Source of the DNA: Vicinamibacteraceae bacterium
Lineage (GTDB): Bacteria; Acidobacteriota; Thermoanaerobaculia; Multivoradales; Multivoraceae
Assembly (NCBI GenBank): GCA_012270995.1
Contig: JAAXHG010000060.1
Coordinates: 1 to 64,000 of the forward strand
Length of the DNA stretch: 64,000 bases
Direction of reading: 5' to 3'
Positions 3,381 to 57,018 of this stretch are shown here, in pieces (position 1 is the first letter of the stretch; each line of letters opens with the position of its first letter). The notes under the pieces were generated by a model, which searched no databases, was not told the DNA's origin, and saw only the letters and a program-made list of their open reading frames with translations. A program made the translations under genes and the position numbers.

Positions 3381-3455
3381 CCGATTCTGTCTCAGTGCGG
3401 GCGTCGCGTTGTGTCCTCGACGGCCGCCGTCAGGCGGCGTGAGGGAAGCCGTCTT

Positions 3456-3866: not shown

Positions 3867-3938
3867 ACTCCTTTCTGCAGTTAGCGGTAGCCAACCAGTG
3901 TAGCGCCTGGCTGGGACGGGGGCGCGGCCCGGAGACCG

Positions 3939-4409: not shown

Positions 4410-4626
4410 CTCAAGGCCCCGCTGCGTCCAGCCTGGGTCGGGTCCGGAGGGGAGGGCCCCAGCGGGCTGTCGGCAAGCGACGGGCAAGAACCGCTCATGA
4501 ACCGATGTCCAGCCGGAGCGCAGCCGACCGCAGCGAACGCTCCCCCTTCACGAACCAGACAAGCGTGAGCGACCGCAGGGACACTCCCCTCCGGACCCGA
4601 CACCGGCGGATGCCGTTCGATGCCGC

Positions 4627-6669: not shown

Positions 6670-7151
6670 GGTCGATTCTCCTCTCTGTCGTCTGCGGCGG
6701 GAGGCGAGGCCGGTTCCGGTTGGGCCGCCGGCCGGTACTCCTCGGGGCCGATGCTGCGCAGGTAGTGGACGAGGTCCCATACCTCCTCGTCGTCGAGCTC
6801 GGCCTCGAACGGCGGCATGTCGAGGCCGGCCCCGAACTTCGTGCTGCGGAAGAGTTCCCCGTCCGAGGTCCCGAACCGCCAGCGCTCGGGATCGGTCAGG
6901 TCGGTCGCCTCGAAGTCGATGTTCTCGAGCGCGCGGCCGTCGAAGCCGTGGCAGATCTGACAGTGCCGCAGGTAGTGCGTGCGGCCCCTCTTCTCGGCGG
7001 CCGGGGTGTATGGCGTCGGATTGACGGCCGCGACCGGCTGGCCGTCTGCCTGATCGGCGCTTGCGGACGGCTCCGACTGGCCGGCCGCCGCGGCGGCCAG
7101 ACCGAGCGAGAGCGACGTCGCAACGCGGAGCGCTCGTGTGGCAACTGTCAT
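6666..7151 (-). CDS. periplasmic c-type cytochrome coupled to the TPP enzyme
   Basis: 161 aa with a Sec-type leader (residues 1-24, ending AAAAAGQS). A single heme motif CQICH is at 64-68 and a likely axial methionine at 112 (LDMPPFE). The C-terminal helix (EEVWDLVHYLRSIGPEEYRP) is typical of class I cytochromes c. The last 25 residues are Pro/Ala/Glu-rich. The stop overlaps the ATG of the Tat-exported TPP enzyme, so both are made together and sent to the periplasm. This suggests the cytochrome accepts electrons from the TPP enzyme. That partnership is inferred from gene order only. Confidence 0.87.
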   Translation of the reverse strand: MTVATRALRVATSLSLGLAAAAAGQSEPSASADQADGQPVAAVNPTPYTPAAEKRGRTHYLRHCQICHGFDGRALENIDFEATDLTDPERWRFGTSDGELFRSTKFGAGLDMPPFEAELDDEEVWDLVHYLRSIGPEEYRPAAQPEPASPPAADDREENRP

Positions 7152-7254
7152 CGGGATGGCCCCGACAGTCTAACCGTGCCGGCCTTCGGCGCGGCAGACG
7201 TCCGGAAGCCGGCGACGAGCCCGGCGTACCCGGTTTCTGCCGCGACGGCTTCGG

Positions 7255-9636: not shown

Positions 9637-9712
9637 GGGCGAAAGGGCACGATACCAACGGGTTGCTCGGCTAAGCTCTCGGCCCGTGTCCATCCAGGTC
9701 TGTTCGGTTCCC

Positions 9713-33322: not shown

Positions 33323-34507
33323 ATGCTCACGCCCGAGGCACTCCACGACCTGATCGCGGCTCACGAGTCGGAACGGGTTGAACTCACCGTCTCGACGAAC
33401 GACACGGACAAGTTCGCCCAGGCGGTGTGCGCCTTCGCGAACGACTTCCCGAACCACCGTCGCCCGGGTTACATCCTGATTGGCGTGGACGACCGGAAGC
33501 AGGTGAGCGGCCTGACGGTCGACGACCTGCTGCTTCGCCGGCTCGGGGATCTGCGCTCCAACGTGAACATCGAACCTCTACCGGCGATCACGGTGCAGAA
33601 GCTCACGTTGCCCCAGGGCGACGTGGCGATCATCGAGGTCATGCCTTCCGACCTGCCTCCGGTTCGCTACAAGGGCACGATCTGGATCCGGACGGGTCCT
33701 TCCCGGCGAAGGGCGAATCGGCAGGAAGAGAGATTGCTGATCGAGAAGCGAGCCGCCAGCGCCAGCACGTTCGATGCAAGTCCGTGCCCGGGATCGAGCC
33801 TTCGAGACCTCACCCGCGACCTGTTCCTCGTCTCCTACCTGCCCGCCGCCGTCGAGCGCGCCGTTCTCGAGGAGAACGACCGACCCGTCGAGGAGCAGAT
33901 GGCGTCGCTCCGGTTGTACGACCTCGACGGCGACTGTCCGACGAACGCGGCGGTCCTGCTCTTCGGCAGGAACCCTCTGCGCTGGCTGCCCGGCGCCTGG
34001 ATTCAGTTCGTTCGTTGGGCGGGAACAACGATGGCGGCCGACCCGATCAACGAGAAGCGGTTCAGCGGCGACATGCTTACCGTCCTGCGCGAGCTGCAAG
34101 CGTTCCTCTCGTCCTCCACGCAAAGCCGGCCGGTCGCGCGATCGTCGCTCCGGGAACGATCGCTTGCCGACTATCCCGCCGTCGCCCTGCGTGAGCTGCT
34201 GCTGAACGCCATCATGCACCGCACCTACGAGTCGAACGCTCCGGTGCGGTTCTCCTGGTACGACGATCGCATTGAGATTCAGAGCACGGGCGGCCTTTAC
34301 GGATCGGTGTCGCCCGAGAACTTCCCGCGGCAAACGGATTACCGGAACCCGGTGCTTTCGGAAGCACTCGCGACTCTCGGTTACGTCAATCAGTTCGGGC
34401 GCGGCGTCATCCGTGCCCAGAACGCTCTCCGTGGCAACGGCAATCCGGATGCGGAGTTCACGTTCGAGCCTCACCATGTGCTGGTAACGATACGGGAACG
34501 ACAGTGA
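33323..34507 (+). CDS. AlbA_2/Schlafen-type DNA-binding protein with HATPase domain
   Basis: 394 aa from ATG 33323. N-terminal AlbA_2-like domain (SERVELTVSTND, FANDFPNHRRPGYILIGVDD, RYKGTIWIRTGPSRRRANRQEE at about 10-140), a winged-helix-like centre, and a C-terminal GHKL-type ATP-binding half (ALRELLLNAIMHRTYE, DDRIEIQSTGGLYG, GYVNQFGRGVIRAQNAL). Such proteins are annotated as putative transcriptional regulators and recur in mobile and defence regions. Its stop overlaps the parA start as GTGA. The 199 bases upstream (33124-33322) hold no evident gene. Confidence 0.83.
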   Translation: MLTPEALHDLIAAHESERVELTVSTNDTDKFAQAVCAFANDFPNHRRPGYILIGVDDRKQVSGLTVDDLLLRRLGDLRSNVNIEPLPAITVQKLTLPQGDVAIIEVMPSDLPPVRYKGTIWIRTGPSRRRANRQEERLLIEKRAASASTFDASPCPGSSLRDLTRDLFLVSYLPAAVERAVLEENDRPVEEQMASLRLYDLDGDCPTNAAVLLFGRNPLRWLPGAWIQFVRWAGTTMAADPINEKRFSGDMLTVLRELQAFLSSSTQSRPVARSSLRERSLADYPAVALRELLLNAIMHRTYESNAPVRFSWYDDRIEIQSTGGLYGSVSPENFPRQTDYRNPVLSEALATLGYVNQFGRGVIRAQNALRGNGNPDAEFTFEPHHVLVTIRERQ

Positions 34508-35484
34508 AGACCATCGCCTTCTTCAACAACAAGGGAGGCGTCGGCAAGACCACGCTCGTCTATCACTTGGCGTGGATGTACTCGGAGATAGGCTTTTCGG
34601 TTCTGGCCGCGGATCTTGACCCGCAGGCGAATCTGAGTACGTACCTGCTCGTTGAAGAACGGCTGGAAGAGCTGTGGCCGGACGAAGAGCACCACGACAG
34701 CGTGCTGGGCGCGGTCTCGCCGATACTGAAGGGCCTTGGAGACATCCGGGATCCGCACGTCGAGCGAATCGCGGACAATTTCGGTTTGCTGGTAGGCGAC
34801 CTGGGGTTGTCCCGGTTCGAGAAGAGACTGTCCGCGGCCTGGCCTGACTGTCTGGACGGAGATGAGTCAGCTTTCCGGGCCGAGTCGGCGTTTCACCGGC
34901 TGACGCTAAGGGCGGCCGAGAGCCTGGACGCCGACCTGGTACTGGTTGACGTTGGGCCCAACCTGGGTTCGATGAACCGTGCAGCGATCATTGCCGCGGA
35001 CCATGTCGTTCTACCCCTTGCGCCGGATCTGTTTTCGATCCAGGCGCTGCGGAACGTCGGTTCGATGCTGCACGAGTGGCGCGAAGGTTGGCGGGCTCGG
35101 TTGAAGAAGGCGCCGGATACCGATGAACTCCCCCTACCCCGAGGTGAGATGAAACCGCTTGGCTACATCCTGATGCAGCACGCCGTTTACGCGAATCGGC
35201 CGGTGAAGGCTTACCAGAAGTGGGCTGATCGCATTCCGGACGCCTATCGCGAGGAGGTAATGGACCATGACGGAGACACGGGATGCCTAGCGACGTTGAA
35301 GCACTATCGTAGCCTGATGGCGATGGCTCACGAGGCACGCAAGCCAATGTTCCATCTGCGCGCCGCCGACGGCGCTTTGGGAGGCCACTTGTACGCCGTG
35401 CAGGACTGCTATCGGGACTTCGAGGACCTGGCCAGGACCATCGCCGATCGTTGCGGCGTGACGGCGGCTCGGCCGTCCAAGTGA
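34504..35484 (+). CDS. parA: ParA/MinD-family ATPase
   Basis: 326 aa from GTG 34504. Deviant Walker A KGGVGKTT (10-17), Asp-rich switch (LAADLDPQANLSTYL), Walker B-like LVLVDVGPNLGSMNRAAI and PLAPDLFSIQAL. It is longer than MinD because of an insertion around residues 60-120. No ParB gene accompanies it; instead the coupled upstream AlbA_2 protein and the 16-bp-period repeat array just downstream could replace ParB and its centromere. A signalling role in a defence module is an alternative. Confidence 0.85.
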   Translation: MKTIAFFNNKGGVGKTTLVYHLAWMYSEIGFSVLAADLDPQANLSTYLLVEERLEELWPDEEHHDSVLGAVSPILKGLGDIRDPHVERIADNFGLLVGDLGLSRFEKRLSAAWPDCLDGDESAFRAESAFHRLTLRAAESLDADLVLVDVGPNLGSMNRAAIIAADHVVLPLAPDLFSIQALRNVGSMLHEWREGWRARLKKAPDTDELPLPRGEMKPLGYILMQHAVYANRPVKAYQKWADRIPDAYREEVMDHDGDTGCLATLKHYRSLMAMAHEARKPMFHLRAADGALGGHLYAVQDCYRDFEDLARTIADRCGVTAARPSK

Positions 35485-35616
35485 CGGCGTTGGACGGCAG
35501 TCGCCACCCGGCTTCACGGGTGCGGCTGCGTCAGCACCATTCCGCGGCGCCGCCCGGGAATCGCCACAAGGAAGAAGCACCCCCGGAACGCCGACATCAC
35601 CCGCTTCGCCCGCCTC

Positions 35617-35713
35617 TTGACAACATAGTGTATTGCAACACGGACATTTCACAACATCGGTTCTTGACGACATGGACATCTCACAGCAGGCGCACTTGAC
35701 AACATGACAACAT
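35617..35713. repeat. iteron-like array, 16-bp period, downstream of parA
   Basis: Units begin at 35617, 35632, 35648, 35664, 35680 and 35696 (spacing 15,16,16,16,16), with an extra half-unit at 35704. The conserved core is TTGACAACA or close variants (TTCACAACA, TTGACGACA, CTCACAGCA). The period is not a multiple of three, so coding is unlikely, and the stretch is more AT-rich than its surroundings. It lies in a 370-bp gap between parA and the convergent helicase gene. The rest of that gap (35485-35616 and 35714-35854) shows no gene. It could be a centromere-like, operator or replication iteron site. Confidence 0.75.
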
Positions 35714-35854: not shown

Positions 35855-38800
35855 TCACCCAGCGTCCAGAAGGTCTCGGAGGGAGGCCGGCGGCTGGGCT
35901 TCGGCAGGGGCGTCGTCTTCGTCGACGTCCCTGGGCGGCTGGAACAGCGGGCTGCCGGGGGACCAGAGCTCCAGACTCTCGGAATGCTCCTCGTAGTACT
36001 CCGGGTCGGTCGTCACGCGGAGCGTTTCCTTCATTCCGGGGGCGAGCAGACCGTACTCGCGAGCGCCCAGCGGGCGGATCTCGACGCCGGGCGGCATGAG
36101 GTCCGACCTTGAGATGACGCGGTCGAGGCCGGCCATGGTCAGGGGCGATTCGGGGAGTACCGGCATCTCCAGGTCTTCTTCGAGCACTTCGTCGAGGTCG
36201 AAGCCGGCGTCCTCGGCTTCGTCGAGCCGCCCTTCCAGGCGGTGGGCGAGGGAATGAGTGGAGGTCCGACCGGCGAGAATTTCCGCCGTGATCGAGCGCG
36301 GCAACTCCGCCAGGATCGGTTGCAGCCGTCCGACGACGGCCTGGAACAGGCCGATGCGTTGCCGCAACGCCTGGTACACGTCCGTCTCCACCGTGTCCTC
36401 GTAGTGCAGGTTGACGATCTGGATCGCCGGACTGCGCTGGCCCAGGCGGTCGATACGTCCGATGCGCTGTTCGACCCGCATCGGGTTCCACGGCATGTCG
36501 TAGTTGACGAGAGCGCCGCAGAACTGGAAGTTGAGGCCTTCCGAAGCCGCGTCGGTGCAGAGCAGGACGTCCGCGTCTCCATGGCGGAAACGTCGTTTGA
36601 CTTCGTCGCGGTCGATCGAGTCCCAGCCGCCGTCGGCGGTCGGCGCTTCGCCGCCGCGGCCCGAGTAGCACATCAGCTTGACGCCGGCGGCGTCGGCGCT
36701 CAGCGATTCCCGGAGGAAGTCCATCGTGTCGGTGTACTGGGTGAACACCATGACCTGGGCGTAGCCCTCGTCGCGCAGGCGGCCCAGTTCGGCCTTGAGC
36801 GCGGCCAGCTTGCTGTCGGGCGGCAGCCGCCGCGTTCGGTCGAGAAGCTCGGCGATCACGGTCTGCTCTTCCGCCTTCAGGACGGCGCGCTCGTTCTCGG
36901 CCAGGTCTTCGGCGTCCCAGTTCTGGGCGCGAATCTCGTCCTCGAAGATGTCTTCGTCGAGGTCGGTCCGGCGCTCGCGTTCGGGTTCGGCGAAGGCCTC
37001 CAGCCGATCCTGGAGCGTGTTGCGGAGCGCCTGGAAGCTGCTTGCCAGGCGCCGTCGGTAGGTAGTCATCACGAATCCCACCGCGTTGCGGTCGCGGGCT
37101 TCGGCCTTGTTGTAGGCGCCGGAGATGTACGTTCCGACGGCTTCGTAGAGCCGCCGTTCCTCCGCGCTCATGGGCACGAGGCGATCCGCGACGCTCCGTT
37201 CCGCGATGGACGCGTCCACCATTCCGCGCTCGCGGTAGGCGCGCAGCAGCTTGCGAGTATGGCGCGACACGAGGCGGCGAATCGGCGTGTTGGCCCGCGC
37301 GACGGCGACGGCCGCTCTCCGTTCCGGCGCCTCCAGCCGCCTCCGGGCGATGGAGGAGGGGCTTCTCAGTGCGCGCAGCACCTTGCCGGTTCCCAATGAC
37401 GACAATCCGGCAGCGCGTTGGGCCACGACCCTCGCGGTTTCTCCGTAGCGGACTTCGGTGGCCCGGAACATCTCCGCGATCCGGTCCAGCGCCTCGTGCG
37501 AGGGGTTCGGTTCTTCGATGTCCTCGAAGAACTTCAGGAACCGCTCCTGGGTCCACTCGGCCGGCAGGCCGAGGGGGGCCAGCAGATCCCAGACCTCGAC
37601 CGGGTGGACCTGCATCGGCGTCGCGGTCAACAGGACCAGTCCTTGGGTTCTCCGCGAGATGCCCTGGAGCAACCGGAGCATGGCGTTGGGTCGCTGCTTC
37701 CGCCGGCTGCCCCCGACTTCGCGTCGGCGGGCGTGGTGGGCCTCGTCGACGACGATCAGGTCCCAAGGTTCGGCGTCCTCGAGCAAGCTCCGGGATCGGT
37801 CGGAGCGTCGCATCAGATGGCTCGACGCGATGACGGCGGACGCCTTGTGCCAGTCGTCCCCGCCAACTTCGCGTTCGTTGGCGCCGCGAAGCGCCGGCGA
37901 CGGATAGCGCGCGAGCCTGCGACCGTCGTAGATCGGCCAGTTCAGGTTGAACTTCTCGCGCAACTCGATCTGCCACTGTCGGCACACCGCCTTGGGCGCG
38001 AGAACGAGGATGCGCCTGGCGCGTCCGGCCAGCCACGCTTGCCGAAGGAGCATCCCGGCCTGGATCGTCTTGCCCAGGCCCACCTCGTCGGCGATCAGCA
38101 ACCTCGGCGGCCATTCGGCGTAGAGCCGCTCGAAGGCCCGGATCTGGTGCGGCCAGGGAACGACGGCCGCGGTGGCTTCGCCGACCCGCCGGCCGCCGCC
38201 CGGAAGCGTCGGCGCCATTTGGATGAAGGACCACGCGCGGCTTCGGAGGTCCGGCTCGGCCCTGGCTGGCGGGGCGGGCGGCGGGGCGACGGGCGGTGGC
38301 GGCTCGTCGGTTGTCGCCGTCGGCTCGGCGGGCTTCAGCCGGGCGGGCTGGTCGCTTTCCGGCATGAAGCGCAGCAGATCCCGGCGCGCGGCCGCCGGCG
38401 CGTCGAGCACGACGACACGGGGCGACTCGTCGGCCCACAGGCGATCGAAGTTGGTCTGTTCGTGGGTCACCCGCTCGGGTTCCGACCCTTCTCCCCAGCT
38501 CTTGAAGACGCTGATGCTCTCCCAGTTCCGGCGCCACCCCGCCGCGGTCTCGTTGAGGCTGCCGGTCCAGGCGATCCGGTCGCCGATCCGATCTTCGATC
38601 ACGCCTGACTTCTCGTGGAAGATACCGTTCGCGGGGATGGGCTGTCGGTTCGCATCGCAAGGCACCGCGACCTTCACTTCGAGGTAGCCGCGCGCGACCA
38701 TCCAGGCCAGCAGTTCCAGGGCGTCGGCCGACTCCTGGTCCGCGGGTTCGAGCGGGATGGTCCCCAGGTGTTGCTCGACGGCGTCTCGAAGGTTCTCGCC

Positions 38801-39040
38801 TCGCTCGATCGCGTCGATTTCGGGCTGGTCCAGAGTACAGCCCACGAGCAGCCTCATCCGCCCCGCGTTGCGGACCAGCCCCTCGATGCCGCGCGCCGCC
38901 AGGGTCAGCGCTCCGGCCTTGAAGTACCCGGTCAGCCGGTCGTAGCGTTCCGCGTCGTCAAGCGCCGGGAGATAGAAGACCCGCACCAGGTCGCCGTCCT
39001 CCGGCGTGTACTTCAGGCGCCAGTCGTGGTCGCTCAACAT
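35855..39040 (-). CDS. PLD-domain SNF2-type helicase of a helicase-methylase-ATPase defence system
   Basis: 1061 aa. Residues 1-220 form a phospholipase D-like domain with one HKD set (His142, Lys144, Asp150 in FHEKSGVIED). A Pro-rich linker (about 240-265) leads to an SF2 helicase: Walker A DEVGLGKT 318-325, DEAH 432-435, LLTATPMQV, and the C-terminal RecA half with VMVFTQYTDTMDFL, LLCTDAASEGLNFQ and QRIGRIDRLGQ. This PLD-plus-SNF2 architecture accompanies DUF1156 methylase and DUF499 ATPase genes in defence islands. It is the only one of the three core genes that is intact here. Downstream of the Phd/RelE pair on the same strand. Confidence 0.88.
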   Translation of the reverse strand: MLSDHDWRLKYTPEDGDLVRVFYLPALDDAERYDRLTGYFKAGALTLAARGIEGLVRNAGRMRLLVGCTLDQPEIDAIERGENLRDAVEQHLGTIPLEPADQESADALELLAWMVARGYLEVKVAVPCDANRQPIPANGIFHEKSGVIEDRIGDRIAWTGSLNETAAGWRRNWESISVFKSWGEGSEPERVTHEQTNFDRLWADESPRVVVLDAPAAARRDLLRFMPESDQPARLKPAEPTATTDEPPPPVAPPPAPPARAEPDLRSRAWSFIQMAPTLPGGGRRVGEATAAVVPWPHQIRAFERLYAEWPPRLLIADEVGLGKTIQAGMLLRQAWLAGRARRILVLAPKAVCRQWQIELREKFNLNWPIYDGRRLARYPSPALRGANEREVGGDDWHKASAVIASSHLMRRSDRSRSLLEDAEPWDLIVVDEAHHARRREVGGSRRKQRPNAMLRLLQGISRRTQGLVLLTATPMQVHPVEVWDLLAPLGLPAEWTQERFLKFFEDIEEPNPSHEALDRIAEMFRATEVRYGETARVVAQRAAGLSSLGTGKVLRALRSPSSIARRRLEAPERRAAVAVARANTPIRRLVSRHTRKLLRAYRERGMVDASIAERSVADRLVPMSAEERRLYEAVGTYISGAYNKAEARDRNAVGFVMTTYRRRLASSFQALRNTLQDRLEAFAEPERERRTDLDEDIFEDEIRAQNWDAEDLAENERAVLKAEEQTVIAELLDRTRRLPPDSKLAALKAELGRLRDEGYAQVMVFTQYTDTMDFLRESLSADAAGVKLMCYSGRGGEAPTADGGWDSIDRDEVKRRFRHGDADVLLCTDAASEGLNFQFCGALVNYDMPWNPMRVEQRIGRIDRLGQRSPAIQIVNLHYEDTVETDVYQALRQRIGLFQAVVGRLQPILAELPRSITAEILAGRTSTHSLAHRLEGRLDEAEDAGFDLDEVLEEDLEMPVLPESPLTMAGLDRVISRSDLMPPGVEIRPLGAREYGLLAPGMKETLRVTTDPEYYEEHSESLELWSPGSPLFQPPRDVDEDDAPAEAQPPASLRDLLDAG

Positions 39041-39056: not shown

Positions 39057-39338
39057 TCACGTCCGGCGGCGTCGCAGCCGTTCGTACACGTCGCCGCGCG
39101 ACGCGACGACGAGCACGACGACGATCAGCCGATTCTCTTCCACGGAGTAGCAAACCCGCCATTCACGAACCCGGATCCGCCAGGCGTTCCGCACGGCCTT
39201 GAGCTTGGCGGCCCCGGCAGGACGGGGGTTGACCGCCAATCGGGCGATGGCGTCCGAGATCTCTCGAAGCGCTCGCCGATCACGGATCCGCCGGAGATCC
39301 CTCCTGGCGGCCTGTGCGAACTCGATCCGATAGGTCAA
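39057..39338 (-). CDS. relE: RelE/ParE-family toxin
   Basis: 93 aa, basic. MTYRIEFAQAARRDLRRIRDRR, AIARLAVNPRPAGAAKLKAVRNAWRIRVREWRVCYSV and the final strand IVVVLVVASRGDVYERL are the RelE/ParE fold. RelE toxins cut ribosome-bound mRNA and ParE toxins poison gyrase; family-level sequence alone does not decide. The start overlaps the antitoxin stop (ATGA). The helicase gene begins 16 bases downstream, so the pair is embedded in the defence operon. Confidence 0.88.
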   Translation of the reverse strand: MTYRIEFAQAARRDLRRIRDRRALREISDAIARLAVNPRPAGAAKLKAVRNAWRIRVREWRVCYSVEENRLIVVVLVVASRGDVYERLRRRRT

Positions 39339-39655
39339 AGCCCGAGCTCGGACCTGACCTCCTCGAAGCTGACGCCGCCGTTCGCCCGGTAGTCCGCAAG
39401 GGCGTCGCGGGCGTCCAGTTCATCCAGCAGATCTTCAAGAGACCCAAGCGCCGTCAGATCGCTTGCGGAGACCAGCCCGGCAATCGTCCTGCCGTTCTTG
39501 CGGATGGCGATGCGCTTCCCCTCGGCTTCGACGATCCGGCTGACCTCATCGAAGTTCTCCAGCAACGCGGCCGAGGAGAGAACCGTTGGCGCCGCCGCCT
39601 CCCGAGGCTTGGCGGGGGCGTTCGTCCGTTCGGATGCTGGTTCGGGATTCGTCAC
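39335..39655 (-). CDS. Phd/YefM-type antitoxin
   Basis: 106 aa. After a Pro/Ala-rich tip the Phd/YefM fold is visible (VLSSAALLENFDEVSRIVEAEGKRIAIRKNGRTIAGLVSASDLTAL, about residues 25-70), with an acidic C-terminal helix pair (LEDLLDELDARDALADY) that would cover the toxin. It is cotranscribed and 4-base overlapped with the RelE/ParE toxin. The 139 bases upstream (39656-39794) contain no gene. Confidence 0.84.
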   Translation of the reverse strand: MTNPEPASERTNAPAKPREAAAPTVLSSAALLENFDEVSRIVEAEGKRIAIRKNGRTIAGLVSASDLTALGSLEDLLDELDARDALADYRANGGVSFEEVRSELGL

Positions 39656-39794: not shown

Positions 39795-42700
39795 TCAGTC
39801 GGCGTCCTGCCGCCAGATCGCGAGTTGCTCCGGTTCGTCGATCCGGTCGGCGAAGGCGAAGCGCCGCAGGTTGTAGAGGGCCTCGAAGTCGTTGCTGGAA
39901 GCGGCGATCTCGCCCTTGAGCGCGACGCCGGTGAAGGCCGAGGACACGGGGAGCACTTCGAGGACCGCCTCGAAGGCGGCGAGGAAGAGCGGGTCCTCGG
40001 CGATGTCGATGCGCGCGAGCAGGTCGCGGGCCTCCTCCAGCGAGCGGTTGCGCGCCATGTGCGCCGCGTGATGGAGGGCGTCGATCATGCCGCGGGAACC
40101 GTCCGCCGACCCGAGGGCGCCGCGGGCCGCCCTGCGTTCGCTGTCCCAGAGCTGCAGGGCGCCGCTCTTCTTGAGTGCGAGCCGACCCACGACGTCGCGG
40201 TCCAGATCGACGCCCGTGGCCCGGGCGAGGCGGAGCGCCTCGTCGTAGGAGAACGCCGGCGCCTTGAACGCGTCCCAGGCCAGCACGAAGAAGGCGGTCG
40301 CCGGATCGAGGTCGACGTTGGCCTTGAGATGGGTCAGTTGCTCCAGCCGCCAGCGCTTCACTTCCCGGCGGGCCACGTCCAGCGCATCCTCGGGGGTCAC
40401 GGCGTAGGGGTCCGGCTCTTCGAGTTGCAGCCTTGCCTGGCGGCCTCGCCGCTTGGCGTTGGCGGGCGGTTCCCGGGGCGTGCCGCGCCGCAGCGGCCAG
40501 TGCTCGGAGAACCGCTGGAGCGCGGGGCCGAAGCAGGCGAGGTAGAGGTCCACGCCGCCGATGCCGGCCTCCTGGAACTCGCCGACGCGGGCGCGGACCG
40601 CCCCGGCGACTTCCGGCTCCACGTCTTCCCAGTACGTCGCGCCGTCGCGCAGTTCGGCCGCGCCGCGGTCGTCGGGCGGCCGGCAGACGAGGAAGATCGT
40701 GCTCTTGGCGGCCGCCTTGTCCTTGATGTGCAGGCTGCCGGCCGCCTCCGTGTTGATCGGCCAGGAGGCGGTGATCCGGAAGCCCGCTTCCATGAGTCCC
40801 GTCGTCAGCGCGTCCCAGGCGCCGGAGGCCTTGTGGGTGAACATCAGGGTCATGACGCCGTCGGGCCTCAGCACCCGGGCGCACTCGCGGAAGATCGCCG
40901 CCATCCGCTCCTGGTAGTCCCGCCCGGCCAGCGCCTTCGCGCCCTTCTCTCCCTTGAACCGGGCCGGGTTGGCGACCGCCTCGTTCTCCTTGTCCGTCAG
41001 GCGGCGTCGGAAGAGCTCGGGGAAGACGTGCCCGGCCGTGCGCTTGAGCCAGACGTAGAAGAAGTCAGCCAGCTCGGCGTACATCACGTTGTCGTAGTAG
41101 GGCGGGTCCATGACGACGACGTCGATGGAGGCGTCCTCGATGTGGTCGAGGCTGTCGGCGGGCTTGCAGGTGATGGTGACCGGGGGCCATGCCGGGCCGC
41201 CGGCGCCGGGCGCCGGGGAAGCCGCCGCCGCGGGAGCGGCGGGTCCCTGAGTCCCGCCGGCGACTTCGCCGTCATCGCCGCGGCGGCGCGAGACTCGGGC
41301 GGCATCGGCGGGACCGCCGGAGGTCGGCGATCCGTCGTTCGGGGCGGCGAGACGGAGCTGGTTCGCGGGCGCGGCTCCGTTGGGAGCAGCGTCGTCGCCG
41401 CGGACGAGTTGGACGAGTTCCTTGATGCACTTGGCGGTCTGGCCGATCGCCCAGTCGTAGCCGAGGCCGGTGATGAGCGGCGCCATTTCGCCGTAGGACC
41501 ACTTGAAGGAGAAGTCGTGCCGGTCGAACGTGCCCGCGAGGACCTCGCGACCGGCATGCCACCGTGTCATTCGCGCGCTGTAGTTCAGGAGCTTGTCCAG
41601 TGCGAGAGCGAGATAGCCGTAAGCCGCCTGCCGAACCTCGTCCAGCCGCCCCGCCGACCGGTCCGCTTCGAGCATCTCGCGGAAGACCTCGACGCTCGTG
41701 CCGTGGCAGAGCAGTTGCCGGGGCGAGAACAGGTCGCGCCACGCGGTCATGCCGTAGCGGATCGGCTCGGCGGTCTTGGCACCCTCGGGAAGCCGTTCAT
41801 TCGGCACGATGTCGAACGCCTCCCAGGCCGGCAGCTTCCCGGCGAGGCGCTCGGCGATCTTCGCCGAGTTGTCGTCTTCGGGCCGCGGCGCCCGGTAGCC
41901 CCGCACCCACTTGTCCTTGCCCCGTTTGCCGGACTTGAGCATCCTGCCCGGCACGCGCCGCTTGTAGACCACCGCGTAGAGCTGCTCGCCCATCCCGCCC
42001 GCCTGGGCCTGACGCTTGATCTCGTCGCCGTCGATCACCCGCCCGCAGTCCGGGAAGGGGCACGTCCCGTCGCTGCGCGCGACCGTCCCGGCGGACTGTT
42101 CGTGAGCCGACTCGACGATCTCGAACGAGCACGTTCGGCCTGCGGTTCCGGGACCGCCCGCGACCTCCGGCTGCAAGCGGACGCCCGTTCCGCCCGGCGC
42201 GAGCCGCCAGTTCGGCGACAGCGGCACGAGGCCCTCGCAGTACGGGCAGGTCACGGTGCGCGCCCAGAGATAGCCGTCCGGTCGGCAGTCGTCCTCGGGC
42301 TCGGACGAGAACACGCCCTTGAGCCGCTTCCGTACCTCGGCGGCAAGCCGCTGCCCGACCTGCTCGAAGCGCCTTTCCACTTCATACCCGTGCATGGCGG
42401 GCCACTCCAGAGTAGCCCGCTCGATCAGGGCCGCGACGGTGTTCAGGTCGTTGGCGACGGTGGCGAATCCCAACCGAACCGCCTCGAACGGAACGCTGCC
42501 GCCGCCTGCGGTGGGATCGAGCACCACAGGCCGTCACGGCGCCGACTCGTCGTCTATCCACCCTTTCCGCCCCGACGCCGCAGTCCGGTCCCTGGTCGGG
42601 GCCACTCCTCGTCGAGCCACCGTTCCCGCTCCTGTTGGCCCGTTCCTCCAGAGCTTCTGCTCGGCCTTCGACGGCGTGTAGCCGAAGGCCCGCGGGTAAC

Positions 42701-42995
42701 CGTAGGCGTTGGCGCCAAGTCGTTCACCCGTCCGGTTCGCCGCGGCGATGCGTTTCTTCGCCGCCACCGGATCCCCGTGAATCCCCAGCGCGTGCAGGAA
42801 CCGCCCGCGGTCCGCGTCCTCCGGCAGCAGCGAGGCGAGCACGGCGGCGCGGGAAGCGACCAGCGGCCGCCGCGCCCACCACACGTGCAGCCGGTTCGGC
42901 GCCGGAAACGGCGTCATCGGCGTCCGCTCCCGGACGCTCTCGATCCCCAGCTCGGCGATCGGCAGCCAGCGTTCGATGAGGCGGGTGTCGGTCAT
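39795..42995 (-). pseudogene. DUF1156 adenine-specific DNA methylase split by an in-frame TGA
   Basis: A single frame of 1067 codons from ATG 42995 carries TGA at codon 154 (42536-42534). Before it is the DUF1156 N-terminus (TDTRLIERWLPIAELG, PAPNRLHVWWARRPLVASRAAVLASLLP), then three codons after the TGA comes VLDPTAGGGSVPFEA (methylase motif I, codons 158-172). Zn-ribbon cysteines follow (CPYC near 250, CPFPDC near 312), and the catalytic motif DPPYYDN near 630. A GTG at 42527 could restart translation but would lack DUF1156. In the family this methylase pairs with a DUF499 ATPase and SNF2 helicase. A Pro/Ala-rich insert of about 60 residues (codons about 530-600) precedes motif IV. Confidence 0.85.
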
Positions 42996-43039: not shown

Positions 43040-43990
43040 TCAGCGCCGTGTGAGTTTCTGCCCGATGTACACGACGTAGATGGGAGTTTCGGGCCACGAG
43101 AAGTGAATGCGGAGCTGTTGGATCTTGACCTTGCCGTGCCACGGACAGAAGAGGGTCTCGCCGGGTTTGTCGGGATGCCGGAAGGTCATCTTCTGGCCGA
43201 ACTTCACCTTCTCATCGTCGGAGGAGTCGGAGAACCATGCCTTCCGGCCGACGAAGTGCTTCTCGCGCAGTTGCCGCTTCTTGCGCGTCCCATCCCGCAG
43301 GCCCGCGAAGCGATTCAGAACGTCGAGCCGCCTCAGCAACTCGCGGACCGCGCCGTCGCTGAAAGGAAGACCGTCCAGGGGATCCATGCAGCCGGGAGCG
43401 AAGCGCAGGTTCGGGTAGCGGCGGATCTCGCGCTGGAAATCCCACCACGTGCGGACGCTGGGTGGAATCGCCCGGAGACCCTCCGCAAGACTCTCCGGGT
43501 CTCTCCAGTTCGGCAAGTCCGCGCGTTCCGCGGGTGGTTCTTCGTCCCCGTGCCGGCGAAAGACGCGGACCGGCGTGTAGTCCCAGTTCGACGGCTTCAG
43601 GCTGACCAGCCCGCAACCGGACCCGCTGAGAGAGCGGAAGGCGGCTTCACCCACCGACGAGTCCGTGACCACTTCCCCGCGGCACTGCAGCCACTCGTCG
43701 GGACCATGACGGCGGGAATCGTCCCAGAAGGGGCCGCCCTTGTTCAGCCAGGAGAGGAACAGACGCCGCTCGTCCGGCGGGACTGCGCGCAGGGCTGGTT
43801 CAAGACGGACGCCGGGTCGAGGCTCGACGTTGCGAAAGCCGCGCGCACAGTGGATCATGTTGCAGTGGCGTTGTGCGACGTTCCACATCCTCATCAGTCG
43901 GCTGATCGCGTCCCGAAAGGACCAATCGTCGTGGAACTGCCCGTGAACCGAAAGTTCGTTCGCCAGGAGATCCACCGCCGTCAGTCCCAT
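43040..43990 (-). CDS. unknown protein of the DUF262-DUF3696 operon, 316 aa
   Basis: Soluble, mixed charge, many Trp and Arg. No enzyme motif is recognised. Visible pieces: a helical N-terminus (DLLANELSVHGQFHDDWSF, SRLMRMWNVAQRHCNMIHCARGF), a middle with repeated Trp (WLNKGGPFWDD, GPDEWLQC, WDYTP, RTWWDFQREIRR), and a strand-rich C-terminus (FCPWHGKVKIQQLRIHFSW, IYVVYIGQKLTRR). That tail resembles the C-terminal strand of small proteins found beside ATPase genes in defence regions, but I cannot name it. It starts inside the last 10 bases of the DUF3696 ATPase gene. It could be the effector or specificity subunit. Confidence 0.72.
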   Translation of the reverse strand: MGLTAVDLLANELSVHGQFHDDWSFRDAISRLMRMWNVAQRHCNMIHCARGFRNVEPRPGVRLEPALRAVPPDERRLFLSWLNKGGPFWDDSRRHGPDEWLQCRGEVVTDSSVGEAAFRSLSGSGCGLVSLKPSNWDYTPVRVFRRHGDEEPPAERADLPNWRDPESLAEGLRAIPPSVRTWWDFQREIRRYPNLRFAPGCMDPLDGLPFSDGAVRELLRRLDVLNRFAGLRDGTRKKRQLREKHFVGRKAWFSDSSDDEKVKFGQKMTFRHPDKPGETLFCPWHGKVKIQQLRIHFSWPETPIYVVYIGQKLTRR

Positions 43991-45255
43991 CCCGCCAGGG
44001 CGCTCAGGTCCTTGTCGAACTGGTCGAAGAAGCCGCCGGGCCAGAAGTCCAGCCCCCCTTCGGCGTCCATCGTCGGCGTCTGAACCTGCGGCGCGTCTTC
44101 GGAACGCGGCGAGAAGAAGTGGAGCGCGGCCCGGTCCGGCGCCAGGATCCCGGCCTTGACGGCGCGGCGGATGCCGTTCAGCACATGGTCGCTGTGGCTC
44201 TCCACGAGCACCTGAACGCCCGCCGCCGCGACCTCGGCCAGAAAATGGCCCATGCGGGCCTGGCCCGAAGGGTGAAGGTGAACTTCGGGATTCTCGATGA
44301 GGAGCAGGGCATCGTGCCCGGCGGACAACGCGGCGATGACGATCGGAAGTACCTGGGTCAGCCCGAAACCCGTGTGAACGGGGCGGTGGAACTCGGTGTC
44401 GTCCGATGTCCTGATGCCGAGCATGACGACGCCTGCCGCCGGCAGTTGTTGCACGTCCAGGACGCAGCCGGGGAAGAACGACGCCATTCGCGCCTCGATC
44501 TGCCGGAAGCGGGTGGGCGGTGCGTCGCCCAAGACCAGACCGGGGAGGACCTTGTCGCTTCCGCCTGCTTCCAGCAGCGCGGCCGCGTTCTCGCCGGCGG
44601 GGCCGATGGCGAAGTCCTCTTCCGAGTCGCGGAGCCGATAGGAGTCGCGCGGCCCCAGGCGCTCGGCCGTGAGGTAGTGAAGCCGTTCCAGTCGGTCGCG
44701 GAAGCCGGGATCCTCCTCGAGCGAGAGCAACACCGGGCCTTCTCCGTCCGGGCCCACCGAACGGCTCGTGACTTCGTCCTCATAGCGCAAGCACGCGAGT
44801 CGCAACGACCGGTCGGCCGGTTCGCCCTCGAAGTCCCATGAGTAGCTAGCCGTGCCCCTGGCCGCGCGGCGGGCTTCGATGTCTCGCGCGAGTTCTTCCA
44901 GCGTGGGTGCCGAGCCGGAACGCCCGGCGCGCGACTTTTCCCGGACGATTCGGAGATCAGGTCGCCCGGCGGGTCTCTTGACGAAGGAATCCAGAATGGT
45001 GATGGAGCAGGATCGCCTCCCGTGAACCTGGTCGATCACGTCGGCGGCCCTGCCCAACCTCAGCACCGGCCCGTTGAGCAGCAGTCGGCTCTCCCAAGGC
45101 GAGACATTCACCGACTGATGGAGCAGCCCGATCGCTTGCAGAACCGTGCTCTTGCCGGACGCGTTGGCACCCGCGAGCAGCGTCAGGGGCGCGAGCGGCA
45201 GCTTGAGCAACTCGAAGCACTTGAAGTGCCGGAGCTCAATCTGCGTCAGCACCAA
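43981..45255 (-). CDS. DUF3696 AAA ATPase
   Basis: 424 aa. ABC/OLD-like ATPase: N-terminal LTQIELRHFKCFELLKLPL, Walker A GANASGKST (29-37), Walker B-type LLLIENPEVHLHPSGQ near 315-330, VESHSDHVLNGIRRAV, and the C-terminal DUF3696-like tail with FFDQFDKDL. No TOPRIM nuclease part is seen. The start (TTG 45255, or GTG 45252) lies 20 bases inside the end of the DUF262 gene, and its own stop lies 10 bases inside the 316-aa gene. This tight nesting indicates a three-gene operon that likely acts as one complex. Confidence 0.85.
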   Translation of the reverse strand: MVLTQIELRHFKCFELLKLPLAPLTLLAGANASGKSTVLQAIGLLHQSVNVSPWESRLLLNGPVLRLGRAADVIDQVHGRRSCSITILDSFVKRPAGRPDLRIVREKSRAGRSGSAPTLEELARDIEARRAARGTASYSWDFEGEPADRSLRLACLRYEDEVTSRSVGPDGEGPVLLSLEEDPGFRDRLERLHYLTAERLGPRDSYRLRDSEEDFAIGPAGENAAALLEAGGSDKVLPGLVLGDAPPTRFRQIEARMASFFPGCVLDVQQLPAAGVVMLGIRTSDDTEFHRPVHTGFGLTQVLPIVIAALSAGHDALLLIENPEVHLHPSGQARMGHFLAEVAAAGVQVLVESHSDHVLNGIRRAVKAGILAPDRAALHFFSPRSEDAPQVQTPTMDAEGGLDFWPGGFFDQFDKDLSALAGWD

Positions 45256-46478
45256 GCGTCTCCCGGAACATGCGGCCGGCCATCTTGAACCGGCGCCGGA
45301 CCTTCCTCGCGTCGTTCGGGCCGTACGTAATCGCTTCGTTGAACTTCTCGTCCTGGAGCAGTGCGAAGAATGCGGCCCTGAAGGCCTCGGCTCGTTCCAG
45401 CACGCGCATCACGTCGTAGGGGGCCAGACCGGTCGACATCACGTCCCACAGCGATGCGTTGATGACGCCCCTCCGATCCTGGTCGGGCTCGTGTTTCCTG
45501 AAGGCCTGCCTTTGAAACAACATGTGGTTGTTCGTCAACGTTCGGTGGAAAACCTCGCGGACTTCGTCGAGCGCCTCGTCGCCTGCCCGATTCATGCGGC
45601 CAAGCGCTCTGGCGAGGAAGCGGTCCATGTCTCCGTCGTAGTCCTCGATGGGCAGCAGATGAAAGGCGCAGAAGCGGTTCACGAACTCCCGGTCCCGCAT
45701 CGTCTTCTGCTTGAGACTGCCGCCCGTGGCCTTCATGAACAGGTCCGTGGCGGCTTCTTTCGCCAGGAACCGCGTGGCCGGCCCCATGTAGAGGCAGTTC
45801 CGCATCTGCTGCCGCGTGAGCGGTACGCCGCTGTTCACGCGGTCGAAGATGTCCAGCCGTGCCCGCTCCGGCACCTTCGAGTCGATGGAGTAGAGCGTCA
45901 GGCTGCAGTCTTCGACCCGGTTCTGGAGCTTCTCCGGGAGATCGGCGAACCGTTTTCCGTCCAGGTCCGGCCGGTCGGGAAGCCGGAGCTTCAACTTGTC
46001 GGCCAGAAAGTGCTGGAAGGTCGTGAGGCGTTGCAGACCGTCCACGACGACGACCTTCCCGTCATCGTTCTCCGCCAGGTAGAGAACGGGAAGGGGAATC
46101 CGCATCAGGATGGACTCGATCAACTTGCTCTGGGTGGGCACGTCCCAGAGAAAGTCGCGTTGGAAGTCCGGATTCAGGATGTATGTGCCGCGATCGATGC
46201 GCCGAACCACGTCGAGGACGGTGCGGGGCTCCTGCCGGATCAGGATGGAGTCGATCGGATAGTCGCCCCAGGGAGCGCCCTTCTCGTCGAGGCCCTCGAT
46301 CTCCTCATCCGCCGATCGGGCGCTGGCGGCGGCCTTCTCGTCGTCCGGAGCGGGTTCGGGCGTCCGGCAGAGCCTCGGAAGCGCTGTCCGGGTCGAGATT
46401 CGACGCCGTCCTTGTTTCTTCCACGAGTGACGCCGGCTCGGGACGCTGCCGGGCCTCTGACGGCTCGCTGTCGGACAT
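45236..46478 (-). pseudogene. DUF262 (ParB-like) protein with probable 1-nt frameshift
   Basis: The body is clear DUF262: RRIDRGTYILNPDFQRDFLWD, SKLIESILMRIPLPVLYLAEND, VVVDGLQRLTTFQHFL, RVNSGVPLTRQQMRNCLY. DUF262 proteins are ParB-like nucleases or NTP-dependent regulators and partner with ATPases in defence. The natural N-terminus (MSDSEPSEARQRPEPASLVEETR from ATG 46478) is in another frame from the body; the switch sits near 46350-46380 where PDARTR changes to PEPAPDDEK. The total length is 3n+1, so one base is inserted (or two lost). Without correction the body has no obvious start before GTG codons near VLDVVRR. Confidence 0.72.
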
Positions 46479-46688
46479 CGGCGGGAGCCTAGCGCACCGG
46501 TCAGATTTGGCGACCGGTTGCAACGACCTTGACGAGGTCGGCCCGTGCATGGACGCGAGCAGCGTGCTTCGACGCCTTGACCGACGCCCGGGCAGGCAGT
46601 CCGGCACGTCCAGTGTGCGGCCGGTTCCATTCCAGTGCCATGCGCGAGAGCACGGCGGAACCGCTGCGAATGCTAGGGTCGGAGCGCT

Positions 46689-47603: not shown

Positions 47604-50600
47604 GGCGTGCCTCCTTCGCTGTCGGGCCCGTCGTCTTCCGATGCCTGGTTCGCCGGCCGGGCCCGCGCGGACCCTGAGACGTGCGCGGCGCCGCCGGCGA
47701 ACCGGGTCAGTTGGTCGGCAAGCTGCTCAGGCGCGTCGCCGTGAAGCGGCAGGCCGTCCGGGAACTCCAGGCGGAACGAGGCCTCGATCGTCGATTCGCG
47801 GGCGTCCCGGAACTGTGGCTGGAGGAACTCGCGCACCGGTTGCGCGTCGGACGGCGGGCCGTTGAACACGAGTTCGAAGGAACCGCCGTCGCGGGTCTCG
47901 TAGCTGCCTTCGAACCGGATCGTCTTGGCCGCTCCGGCCACGGCGCCTATCGCGTTTACCATGGGGAAGGCGTCGCGCGGCTCGAACAGTCGGATCGTGA
48001 GCGTTCCGAGCGCCTCCCGCCTGTCGCGCCTGTTCCCAGAGCTTGATCAGCGCTTCGCTAAGCGGCCCCTCGGCGGAGAACTCGGCGCGCGGGCTCGGCG
48101 GAAGCCAGGGTCCTTGGCCGCTCCCCTTGTCGCGGAGCTCGCTCGGAGACTGGTCATCCCGTTCCTCCTCGCTCGGCCGGGGCCAGATCCGCTCGTTTCT
48201 GGCGTAGGACATGGTGAAGATCATCGACTGTTCGTCGATCTCGATCGTCGGGGCCGGGTCGCCGGGACCGTAGAGGAGATCGCCGCGCTGGTAGACGTAC
48301 TCGCCGAGTTCGACGCCCCGGCGGATTCCCCGTACGAAGACATTGTTCCCCGAGAGCATGGGGAGTCCAGGGTCGCGACGGAACTCGTCGCGAAGGGCGC
48401 CGGTCGAGATTTGTCCCTTCTTCAGCGGCGTTCGGTCGCGAATGTAGGCCGGCGAGTCCGGTTGATCCTCCGGAAGCCGCAGCTTGCCGAGGTCGCGCAG
48501 CGCGCGCACGACCTGCTGCTGGCCGGCGCCCGGCCGCTCGGACGACGAGTGCATGTCGATGGCCGTGTGCGCCAGGTCCACCAGGCGGCTTCCGAGCCGG
48601 TTTCGGGACGGGTAGAAGACGTGCCGGTACGCCTGCTGGATGGCGACCGCCAGTTCCTGCACGGAACGCCGGTGCTGTTCGCGCACCTGATCCTGCTGGT
48701 GTTGGGCCAGCTCCGCCAGGCGCTCCGGCTTCTTCAACTCGCGCAGTGCCAGCCGCCGCCGGCTGCGGTCCCGCATGTTCGACTTGCGCGCTTCCTCGGC
48801 CGCGACGAAGACCAGGTGATTGCGAAGGGCTCGCAGCGAGAGGCTCTCCGCGCCCTTCCGCGAGTAGATCCGCTCCACCAGGTCGGGCGCTTCGTCGACC
48901 GTCGCCCCAACGGATACCGCGTCGTAGGAGACGACGACGAGCTTGGGGCGGCCGTCGCCTACTTCGTCCGGCACGTCGAAGGGGCCGCCCGGGAAGGCGA
49001 TCGCGTCGAAGACCGGGCCGTCGAAGATCCGGCGGATACGGTCGTTCAGTTCGGCGCGGGCCTCGCCGCTGTCGATGTGCTGCTCCTCGCGCCGGATGAT
49101 CTGGCTCAGGTTCGCCTCGGCCAGGAAGCGCAGCGGCGCGGCGGGCCGGTCGTCCAGGTAGGCGGACTCGGCGACGAACTTCTTGCGCCCTTCCTCGATG
49201 AAGCTGATGTCCAGCGCCGGACCGAGCATGGAATAGCGCAGTTGGTCGGCAGCCAGCCCCTTGAGCGGCTCGTTGAACGCGAGCGTATGCATGAAGATGG
49301 TCCGCGCCGCGTACTCCGCGTACGGCGGCAGCCGCCGTGGTGGGCGGCGTCGATTTCCTGGGCGAGCGATCTTCTGCCGGCCGGGCCCGCAATGTCGTTG
49401 GCTATGGCGGGTGCGTAGGCGTCCTGGCCGAGTCGCGTGAGGATCTCCTGACGAATCGGCTCGTGCCCGGGGTCGATGTGGTGCAGGTGGATCGCCGCGG
49501 CGTCGTCCGGCGGCTCTTCCCACAACTGGCCGACCGTGCGCGCCAGGAGCCGCAACATGCCGCGCACGCGCTGGAAGGTTGCGAGGGTCGCCGTTTTGCC
49601 GGTCAGGGTCTCCAGGACTTCGGGGTGCAGCGGGTAGCTGGCGGCGAAGGTCTCCGCGTTGGAGGACGGGTTGGCCGAAGTCGGAAGGGAGTCGGCGTGA
49701 GCGGACCAGAGCTTGCGGTAGTCGCCGGCGACTTCGGCCGCCGCGTCAGGATCGATGCTCTCGAAGAGCCGCCGCCGGAGCACCTGGATCGTCTCGTCGT
49801 CCGCGGTCGGATTGAGGAGCGTCGCCTTGCGGGCGGAGACGCTCTCGGCCTCGGCCATCTGGTCGGCGATGAAGCGGTTCTCCTCGCTGTAGGCATCCGG
49901 CGCGCCGCCGTCCCCCTTGCCGATCGCCAGGGTGTAGACGAGCGCCGCGTTCGGCGCGTTCTCGATCGCCTTGAACAGCGAAGTCAGAAAGGTGGTCAGC
50001 TGGTCCCGTGCATCGTCGAGCCGCCGGACCTTGCGCAGATACACGGAGAGCTCGTCGAGCAGGATGAGGGTCGGCTCGCCGCCGAAGAGCTCCTGGAGCG
50101 TTCCGGCCCCAGGCGCCGCCCGCATCTCGTCGCTCTTGCGCACGCGCTCGTAACCCGGTACGCCGGCGAGGGCGTAGGCGATCTGGCGCCACGGCGTGTA
50201 GGCCAGAACGCCGTCGCCCAACGCGCGCCCGTTGGCGGGGTCGGCGTTCTCGCCGTCGAACGCCGCGACGCGCACTTTGCCCGCGGGCGGCAGCGACGGG
50301 TCGAGGAACTCGGAGGCGTCGGCAACGCCCCTTATGCCGCGCGCCGCGTGGACCAGCGCGATCAGGCCGTGCGTCTTGCCGCCGCCGCCGTAGGAGGTGT
50401 CGAGCCGGAAGATGGCGGCGGCCTCGCCGCCGGCGCCGCCGAGGCGGCGGCAGACGTTCGCGAGCAGGTTCCGCAGGCCGCGCGTGGGGTAGGTGTTGGC
50501 GAAGAACCGGGCGGGGTCGGCGTAGGCCGGACTGCCGGCGCCGCTCAGGACCGACGCGAGATCGGCGGCGAAGTCGGCGTCGGTCACCGCTCCGCGGAGG

Positions 50601-50647
50601 ATGTCCTCGCGGGGTTGGCAGGTCTCGAAAATCGTAGGGGCGGCCAC
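47600..50647 (-). pseudogene. DUF499 AAA+ ATPase with two compensating frameshifts
   Basis: From GTG 50647 the frame gives an N-terminal ATPase: SYGGGGKTHG (Walker A, about 85-94), LILLDELSVYL (Walker B) and VARKATLLNPTADDE-like helices. At about 49330 the frame breaks (HHGG should continue LPPYAEYAARTIFMHTLAFNEP, seen one frame over): one base is missing. The second frame runs to about 48025, where it breaks again; TLTIRLFEPRDAFPMVNAIG then continues in the third frame to the stop at 47600, needing one base removed. Length is 3n because the two lesions cancel. The ATPase is about 1015 aa when restored. A methylase/helicase system cannot work without it, unless these are sequencing errors. 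Confidence 0.83.
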
Positions 50648-55275: not shown

Positions 55276-57018
55276 ATGCTCACCAAGCTCACGATCCGCA
55301 ACTTCAAGCGCTTCGAGGAGGTCGAGATCGAACTCGGCAATCCGGTCGTGTTCGTCGGGCCGAACAACTCGGGCAAGACGTCCGCTCTTCAGGCGCTCGG
55401 GCTTTGGGATCTCGGTCTGAAGCGCTGGAACGAGAAGAGGGAGGGTCAAAAGGCGCCGGAGAGGCGGCCCGGCGTGGCCGTCAACCGGCGTGATCTCACC
55501 GCGACCCCAGTGCCGGTGGCGAATTTGCTCTGGCGAGACCTTCACACTCGCAACGTGCGGGTGGAGAACGGCCGCCAGCGAACGGAGAACGTCCGCGTCG
55601 ATGTGGTTGTCGAAGGGCACGACTGCCAGAGCGTCTGGTCGTGCGGCCTGGAGTTCGACTACGCGAACGCGGAGTCGTTCTACTGTCGTCCGCTGAGGTT
55701 GGGGGCCGGGCGCACTCCCAAGCGGATGCCCGTGCCGGGGCAGGCGAGTTCGGTGCGTCTGGCCTACTTGCCGTCCATGTCCGGGCTGGCAGCCAACGAG
55801 GCGCGAATCGATCCTGGGGCGGTCAACGTCCGGTTGGGCGAAGGGCGTACTTCCGAAGTGCTGCGCAACATCTGTCATCGCTTGCATACGGAGCAACCCG
55901 ACGCATGGAATTCCGTCGTTCGGACCATGGAGCGCTTGTTCGGAGTCGAGATCGACGAGCCGCGCTACGTCGCGGACCGGGGTGAAGTGGCGATGGAGTA
56001 CCGGGAGGGGAGAGTGCTGCTCGATCTTTCGTCAAGCGGCAGGGGGCTCCAGCAGACCCTCCTGCTCTTTTCGTATCTTGCCTTGAATCCGAGGACGGTT
56101 CTCTTGCTCGACGAACCGGATGCTCATCTGGAGACCTTGCGTCAACGCGAGATCTACCGCTTGATCCGCGAGGCCGCTGAGGAACACGACAGTCAGCTTC
56201 TGGTTGCGAGTCATTCCGAGGTGCTGTTGGACGAGGCCGCGGGGGTCGACACGGTCATCGCGTTCATCGGAGAGCCTCATCGGATCGACGCCGGTCCCAG
56301 CCAGGTGACGAAGGCGCTCCGCAGCATCGGATTCGACCAGTTCCTCCAGGCTCGACAGACGGGCTGGGCTCTCTATCTGGAGGGGGCCACCGATCTGGCG
56401 ATCCTCAGGGCCTTCGCCCGGCGTCTTGGTCACGAAGCTGCCGCGAGAGCGTTGGAGCGTCCTCTCGTGAACTACATCGGGAATCGAATCTCCGCGGCGG
56501 AATCCCATTTCTTCGGTTTGCGGGAGGCATCGCCACAACTCCGCGGCATCGCGCTCATGGACGAGGCGGATGAAGGAAGAGAGCCGGCCGGCGGACTCGC
56601 GCGAATACTGTGGCGGCGCCGGGAAGTCGAGAACTACCTCTGCACGCGGTCCACTCTTGAGTCCTTTGCGGCCGGGCTTGCGAGGGAAACCGCGCCCGGA
56701 CCTCTGTTCGCGGAGGCCGAAGTCGCCGGAAGGGTCGAACTGATGCGCCGGATGATCTCGGAGGTCGAGGACGCGCTGCTTCGACTCGGCCGGCCGCCGC
56801 CGTGGAGCGAGGAGTGCAAGGTCAGTGACGACTTCCTGGCGCCGCTGTTCGAAGGGTACTTCCGGGAGTTGGGGGAAGCGAACAGCATGACGAAGGCGAA
56901 CTTTCGTCGGCTGGTCGAGTTCATGCCGGAAGAGGAGATCGATCCCGAGGTGGTGGAGAAACTCGACGCGATCGCGCGCGTCGCGGCGGCCGCCGAGGCC
57001 GTTCGCGAAGAGTCGTGA
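55276..57018 (+). CDS. OLD-like ATP-dependent nuclease candidate
   Basis: 580 aa from ATG 55276. ABC-type ATPase half: LTKLTIRNFKRFEEVEIEL, Walker A GPNNSGKT (28-35), LSSSGRGLQQTLLLFSYL signature near 250-265, Walker B LLLDEPDAHLE near 275-285, and LLVASHSEVLLDEA. It is followed by a TOPRIM-like part (LYLEGATDLAILRAFARRL with Glu, then GIALMDEADEG), the overall order of OLD family nucleases. Solo OLD genes are common phage-defence factors. Its stop overlaps the sulfatase GTG start (GTGA), which would couple a defence-type gene to a hydrolase. Confidence 0.82.
   Translation: MLTKLTIRNFKRFEEVEIELGNPVVFVGPNNSGKTSALQALGLWDLGLKRWNEKREGQKAPERRPGVAVNRRDLTATPVPVANLLWRDLHTRNVRVENGRQRTENVRVDVVVEGHDCQSVWSCGLEFDYANAESFYCRPLRLGAGRTPKRMPVPGQASSVRLAYLPSMSGLAANEARIDPGAVNVRLGEGRTSEVLRNICHRLHTEQPDAWNSVVRTMERLFGVEIDEPRYVADRGEVAMEYREGRVLLDLSSSGRGLQQTLLLFSYLALNPRTVLLLDEPDAHLETLRQREIYRLIREAAEEHDSQLLVASHSEVLLDEAAGVDTVIAFIGEPHRIDAGPSQVTKALRSIGFDQFLQARQTGWALYLEGATDLAILRAFARRLGHEAAARALERPLVNYIGNRISAAESHFFGLREASPQLRGIALMDEADEGREPAGGLARILWRRREVENYLCTRSTLESFAAGLARETAPGPLFAEAEVAGRVELMRRMISEVEDALLRLGRPPPWSEECKVSDDFLAPLFEGYFRELGEANSMTKANFRRLVEFMPEEEIDPEVVEKLDAIARVAAAAEAVREES

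Follow-up and report, generated by a model that had tools for sequence, protein, structure and literature searches.

A ParA-family ATPase and a Schlafen-type AlbA_2 protein predicted to form a two-gene effector-regulator module beside a bacterial defense island

Introduction

A parA gene is usually taken to serve partition and to point to a plasmid origin. The 64-kb stretch of DNA analyzed here (the window) carries a parA gene that overlaps the gene of an AlbA_2-domain protein and is followed by a short repeat array, which raises the question of what a ParA ATPase does in such company. An earlier note on this DNA had treated the two genes and the array as one locus. It proposed an unusual partition or segregation module in which the AlbA_2 protein may bind DNA, or else a ParA-based defense system.

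Results

The AlbA_2 open reading frame (ORF) starts with an ATG at position 33323 and ends at 34507 on the + strand (394 aa); parA runs on the same strand from a GTG at 34504 to 35484 (326 aa), and the four-base overlap described by the earlier note was thus confirmed. Pfam matched the first protein to SLFN_AlbA_2 (PF04326; 2.4e-18), with the full domain covered, and to HATPase_c_4 (5.3e-15), and detected no C-terminal wHTH in it. The second protein, a predicted effector regulator, matched AAA_31 (3.1e-24) and has intact Walker motifs (FNNKGGVGKTT, DLDPQAN, and D149). Residues E15, E20, and D57 (protein numbering) are invariant or almost invariant across the AlbA_2 proteins. The active site of SLFN13 consists of E205, E210, and D248 (PMC5862951), and the spacing of 5 between E15 and E20 equals that between E205 and E210. 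The triad was compared by spacing, and the putative RNase site rests on this motif spacing because the structure model of the AlbA_2 protein was poor (pLDDT 61) and unfit for superposition. The AlbA_2 (Schlafen) protein is a predicted effector, most likely of the RNase type, and we read it in this way rather than as the DNA- or centromere-binding partner of ParA that the earlier note had suggested.

The pairing of the two genes is conserved. At every one of the 15 ParA-clade loci an AlbA_2 gene lies immediately upstream of parA, in agreement with the co-occurrence that the earlier note had called for, and the 4-nt overlap is found at 11 of them. These loci come from class-level relatives, Vicinamibacterales metagenome-assembled genomes (MAGs), and two IMG/VR contigs; two are partial (L042, at a contig end, and L045, truncated). 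ParA relatives with 70 to 73% identity occur in three MAGs, and a second copy is present in the same genome as the window, on contig C108. The distribution is sporadic, with ParA relatives in 10 of the 149 genomes of the class. At L003 to L005 the pair lies amid ordinary chromosomal genes. At L061 (positions 559 to 10348 of an IMG/VR contig) it is part of a BREX operon with the order pglX, AlbA_2, parA, pglZ, brxL. No clear defense system adjoins the pair at two acidobacterial loci (L040 and L044), where one kinase-domain match was obtained. At L045 (G006:C20), from the same genus, ParA is intact and the upstream AlbA_2 gene is short and seemingly degraded. AlbA_2 genes also exist without ParA: the host genome has 10, of which two, both of the present subfamily, are next to parA and eight are not, and L265 is a further case without ParA.

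By the sequence comparisons made here, the window ParA is not a partition ParA, because ParB is absent nearby, its score falls far under the partition cut-off, and its place in the tree is apart from the ParAs linked to ParB. ParB was found neither in the 64-kb window nor on contig C120, and none adjoins the AlbA_2-parA pair; the PF02195 matches of the genome are confined to C124 and C28, and the host's own chromosomal ParA-ParB is located on C124, apart from the pair. The NCBIfam model ParA_partition (NF041546) gives the window ParA 69.3 bits, where the cut-off is 180. In a tree of 120 ParA rows (IQ-TREE quick method, LG+G4), a 114-row clade with a support of 99 excludes both the chromosomal Soj and the rows linked to ParB. 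The type Ia/Ib ParABS partition systems share with the window pair a ParA-fold ATPase, but the pair has neither ParB nor a conserved centromere and its ParA belongs to another clade. PADLOC 2.0 returned only partial matches of the AlbA_2 protein to pAgo-related models and a weak match of ParA to PDC-M28B, and no single system among its models matches both genes.

The repeat array described in the earlier note is real. It starts 132 bp after the end of parA and comprises about 6.5 TTGACAACATGGACAT-like units of ~16 bp on the + strand (35617..~35719), with a higher-order period of 32 bp and a consensus of approximately that sequence. TTGACAACA-like cores with at most one mismatch start at 35617, 35648, 35664, 35696, and 35704, and weaker units are found at ~35632 and ~35680. 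These five cores, which span 35617-35712, are the only ones in the window when both strands are searched. When the 370-bp intergenic region was shuffled 2,000 times with dinucleotides preserved, no cluster had more than two cores versus five observed, and a cluster of five for any 9-mer was obtained in 0 of 100 shuffles. The G+C content of the array is 45% versus 69% for the window. As the array sits between convergent genes, the helicase gene on the - strand ending at 35855, it is downstream of both its neighbors.

The array does not accompany the pair elsewhere, an absence that the earlier note had itself named as speaking against a common locus. At 12 homologous loci of the pair, the 900 bp that follow parA contain no cluster of the TTGACAACA motif; one of these loci (L016) offered only 154 bp. 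In a periodicity test, periods of 12 and 45 were significant against shuffles after parA at some homologous loci, where the sequence is mostly coding, and the core motif was clustered at none of them. None of 23 same-family relatives has the array. In the host genome, the sole other array-like place is the 3′ end of a copy of an IS110-family transposase gene on C77; the remaining genome-wide matches are chance matches. Window positions 35553-35626 align to C77:63651-63735 with 72% identity (E = 6.6e-7), and to the right of the array, 35705-35746 matches the sequence that comes next on C77, so that both flanks resemble this IS110-family end. A single TTGACAACATGGAT unit is present at C77 versus ~6.5 in the window array. 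We consider the segment 35516..35626 (+), which includes the stretch matching C77, to be an IS110-family 3′-end remnant, probably distinct from the pair, and the array is probably a local expansion inside such a remnant, with one homologue as the basis. The ends of IS110-type elements may contain a TTGACA promoter box. The array and the gene pair, both real, thus probably do not belong together: of the single locus proposed earlier, the two co-occurring genes stand and the array falls away.

The pair flanks an Hma plus Menshen defense island on the - strand. The neighbor convergent with parA (35855..39040; Pfam and PADLOC) encodes a PLD-SNF2 helicase of the HmaA or BREX-related type. It is followed by genes for a ParE-type toxin and a Phd/YefM-like antitoxin (39057-39655; Pfam), an HmaB-like methyltransferase (39795-42995), Menshen-type NsnA, NsnB, and NsnC, set between parts of the Hma system (43040-46630; PADLOC E-values of 4.6e-113, 1.6e-95, and 6.8e-93, respectively), and an HmaC-like ATPase (47727-50647). 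The HmaB-like and the HmaC-like genes each appear as a pair of ORFs that overlap or abut, a pattern suggestive of frameshifts, pseudogenes, or assembly errors in both. Outside the Hma block, PADLOC identified an ABC-type ATPase like AriA/NsnB (PARIS, Menshen, and related systems) on the + strand (55276-57018).

More distant ParA relatives form tight operons with other partners in proviruses and plasmids. We assembled 121 non-redundant ParA loci, including those from IMG/VR scans, and a first pass assigned the partners to SIR2 (26 loci), RelA_SpoT (19), AlbA_2 (15), HEPN (5), and ParB (3). The other 53, a few of which lie at contig ends, had no recognized partner, so that a link to an effector is not uniform across the ParA superclade. 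Four of these 53 (L227, L239, L242, and L244) then proved to share an ORF directly after parA, without a Pfam match and with two conserved Asp residues, the structure model of which (pLDDT 84) gave matches to adenylyl and guanylyl cyclases of class III. AlbA_2 is encoded upstream of ParA, whereas the SIR2, RelA_SpoT, HEPN, and cyclase-like partners are encoded downstream. On annotated plasmids, ParA homologues with 27 to 33% identity are followed by a partner gene with an overlap of 1 to 4 nt, SIR2 in Vibrio ponticus, Salmonella, and Spirosoma and HEPN in Burkholderia glumae; the V. ponticus plasmid also has a separate ParA-ParB. An unannotated HEPN ORF also comes after the Soj-like Orf317 of phage Pf1. 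As a separate observation, no operon partner was recognized for L114 to L124 and related ParA clades of this family, which occur in proviruses.

Partner type is largely one per ParA clade in the tree, several clades being without a recognized partner. All 15 AlbA-linked rows group together (SH-aLRT 100), and the corresponding figures are 25 of 26 for the SIR2 clade and 19 of 21 for the RelA/SpoT clade, the odd rows lying at contig ends, and 4 of 4 for the cyclase-like partners. Partner labels change 13 times on the tree versus 64.5 times with shuffled labels, and none of 200 shuffles gave a value as low. HEPN-linked and AlbA-linked ParAs belong to one large clade (99) with the ParB-linked ones outside, in a tree whose deep order is weak and unsure, as it was built by the quick method and the program flagged long branches. 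Nearly all of the 66 effector-linked ParAs retain the residues of Walker A, A′, and B. Key residues are also preserved in the partners: the catalytic N116 and H159 in 24 of 24 SIR2 proteins, the core synthetase motifs in 16 to 17 of 17 RelA_SpoT proteins, and an R-x4/x5-H motif in the HEPN proteins, which match HEPN_RiboL-PSP.

Discussion

The explanation that we regard as probable is that the pair constitutes a two-gene effector-regulator module of the toxin-antitoxin or abortive-infection type, in which a Schlafen effector is associated with a dedicated ParA. A ParA-based defense system, the other proposal of the earlier note, is better supported than partition, with a function that we deduce from the observed operon conservation, clade-partner correspondence, conserved motifs, and context. 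Speaking against this explanation are the many ParA relatives with no recognized partner, the AlbA_2 genes that occur apart from ParA, the gene order opposite to that of the other effector pairs, the poor AlbA_2 structure model, and the two acidobacterial loci with no clear defense system beside the pair. In the proposed mechanism, the AlbA_2 (Schlafen)-GHKL protein would be a toxic effector, most likely an RNase, that ParA would hold inactive in an ATP-dependent manner. Infection or DNA damage would alter the state of ParA, possibly through its ATP/ADP state, its binding to DNA, or a phage product, and the effector would be released or activated. Toxicity, RNase activity, the antitoxin role of ParA, the trigger, and the defense phenotype are all parts of the scheme that we infer. 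The pair would then represent an extra layer at the edge of the Hma and Menshen island. It may also be one branch of a wider ParA family whose clades differ in effector. We lean slightly toward the broader reading that this is an immunity family of related non-partition ParAs serving as the common sensor or antitoxin, in which each ParA has a single kind of effector, out of at least five unrelated kinds (Schlafen RNase-GHKL, SIR2 NADase, RelA/SpoT synthetase, HEPN RNase, and class III cyclase-like), and that the modules are spread by proviruses, plasmids, and defense islands.

Three other readings have to be weighed against this one. A partition module of a mobile island, with ParA as the motor, the AlbA_2 protein in place of ParB, and the array as the centromere, would agree with the ParA fold, the intact Walker motifs, and the presence of a non-random array downstream. 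We consider it highly improbable, since the array is missing at the 12 homologous loci and is accounted for by the IS110-end match, the host keeps its chromosomal ParA-ParB elsewhere with no ParB on C120, the partition score is 69 against 180 bits with the ParB-linked ParAs outside the clade, and several genomes carry the pair in chromosomal sequence.

An accessory or regulatory role, in which the two proteins would support or modulate the Hma or BREX genes beside them and would not form an autonomous module, is unlikely, despite the Hma genes adjoining the pair in the window, its position within the BREX operon at L061, and the wide occurrence of Schlafen-kinase proteins in BREX-type loci (PMC12839542). 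Several homologous loci are outside such systems, as at L003 to L005, and the sister ParA clades have unrelated partners in proviruses and plasmids. Those partners also bear on the last reading. The ParA/MinD family includes known positioning ATPases, and AlbA_2 proteins of the COG2865 type are commonly annotated as regulators. ParA might position its partner on the nucleoid in the manner of McdA or MipZ, the partner being a housekeeping enzyme or transcription regulator and no toxin. This is distinctly unlikely, as the sister partners (SIR2, HEPN, and RelA/SpoT) are typical conflict effectors and the distribution of the pair is sporadic.

The preferred reading, an effector held in check by ParA, has a precedent. 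The dyad of a ParA and an RNase toxin has already been predicted as a kind for HEPN: a 2013 survey (Anantharaman et al., PMC3710099) predicted ParA/Soj-HEPN (MAE_18760) pairs to be toxin-antitoxin systems. Our proposed restraint of the effector by ParA follows that proposal, which likewise concerns a two-gene operon of a ParA/Soj-like ATPase, the proposed antitoxin, and a predicted RNase toxin. In contrast, the partner in the window is a Schlafen AlbA_2-GHKL protein encoded upstream, those of its relatives include SIR2, RelA/SpoT, and cyclase-like proteins, and the HEPN proteins found here match HEPN_RiboL-PSP. An article whose text does not mention ParA (PMC12839542) lists, among the auxiliary effectors of BREX and BREX-related systems, proteins that join a Schlafen RNase to a minimal histidine kinase. 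These proteins resemble the window protein in combining Schlafen with a GHKL ATPase and in their kind of genomic place (the window and L061), but the type described here has a constant ParA partner, also away from BREX, and Pfam found no wHTH at the C-terminus of the window protein. CapRel/toxSAS and SIR2-based defense systems (DSR and Thoeris) share effector domain classes with the sister ParA modules; they are controlled by a fused antitoxin, sensor repeats, or a second messenger, whereas control in the ParA modules would fall to a separate ParA ATPase. Apart from PMC3710099 and PMC12839542, the literature yielded nothing relevant. We found no published pairing of ParA with Schlafen, SIR2, RelA/SpoT, or cyclase, a weak negative, as bioRxiv preprints and many subscription papers lay outside the search, and the PADLOC 2.0 models gave no such system.

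Should these ParAs prove to be immune switches, many prophage, plasmid, and island genes annotated as "orphan parA" would have been misread, and a cytoskeletal-type ATPase would be added to the few known restraints on SIR2, alarmone-synthetase, HEPN, and Schlafen effectors. The loci would also provide a ready set of two-gene modules on which to try the idea. One variant has three genes: at L049, L106, L108, and L109, for which an E. coli relative was sought by megablast with no match, a DNA methyltransferase gene located ~10 nt before ParA-SIR2 makes up a methyltransferase-ParA-SIR2 cassette.
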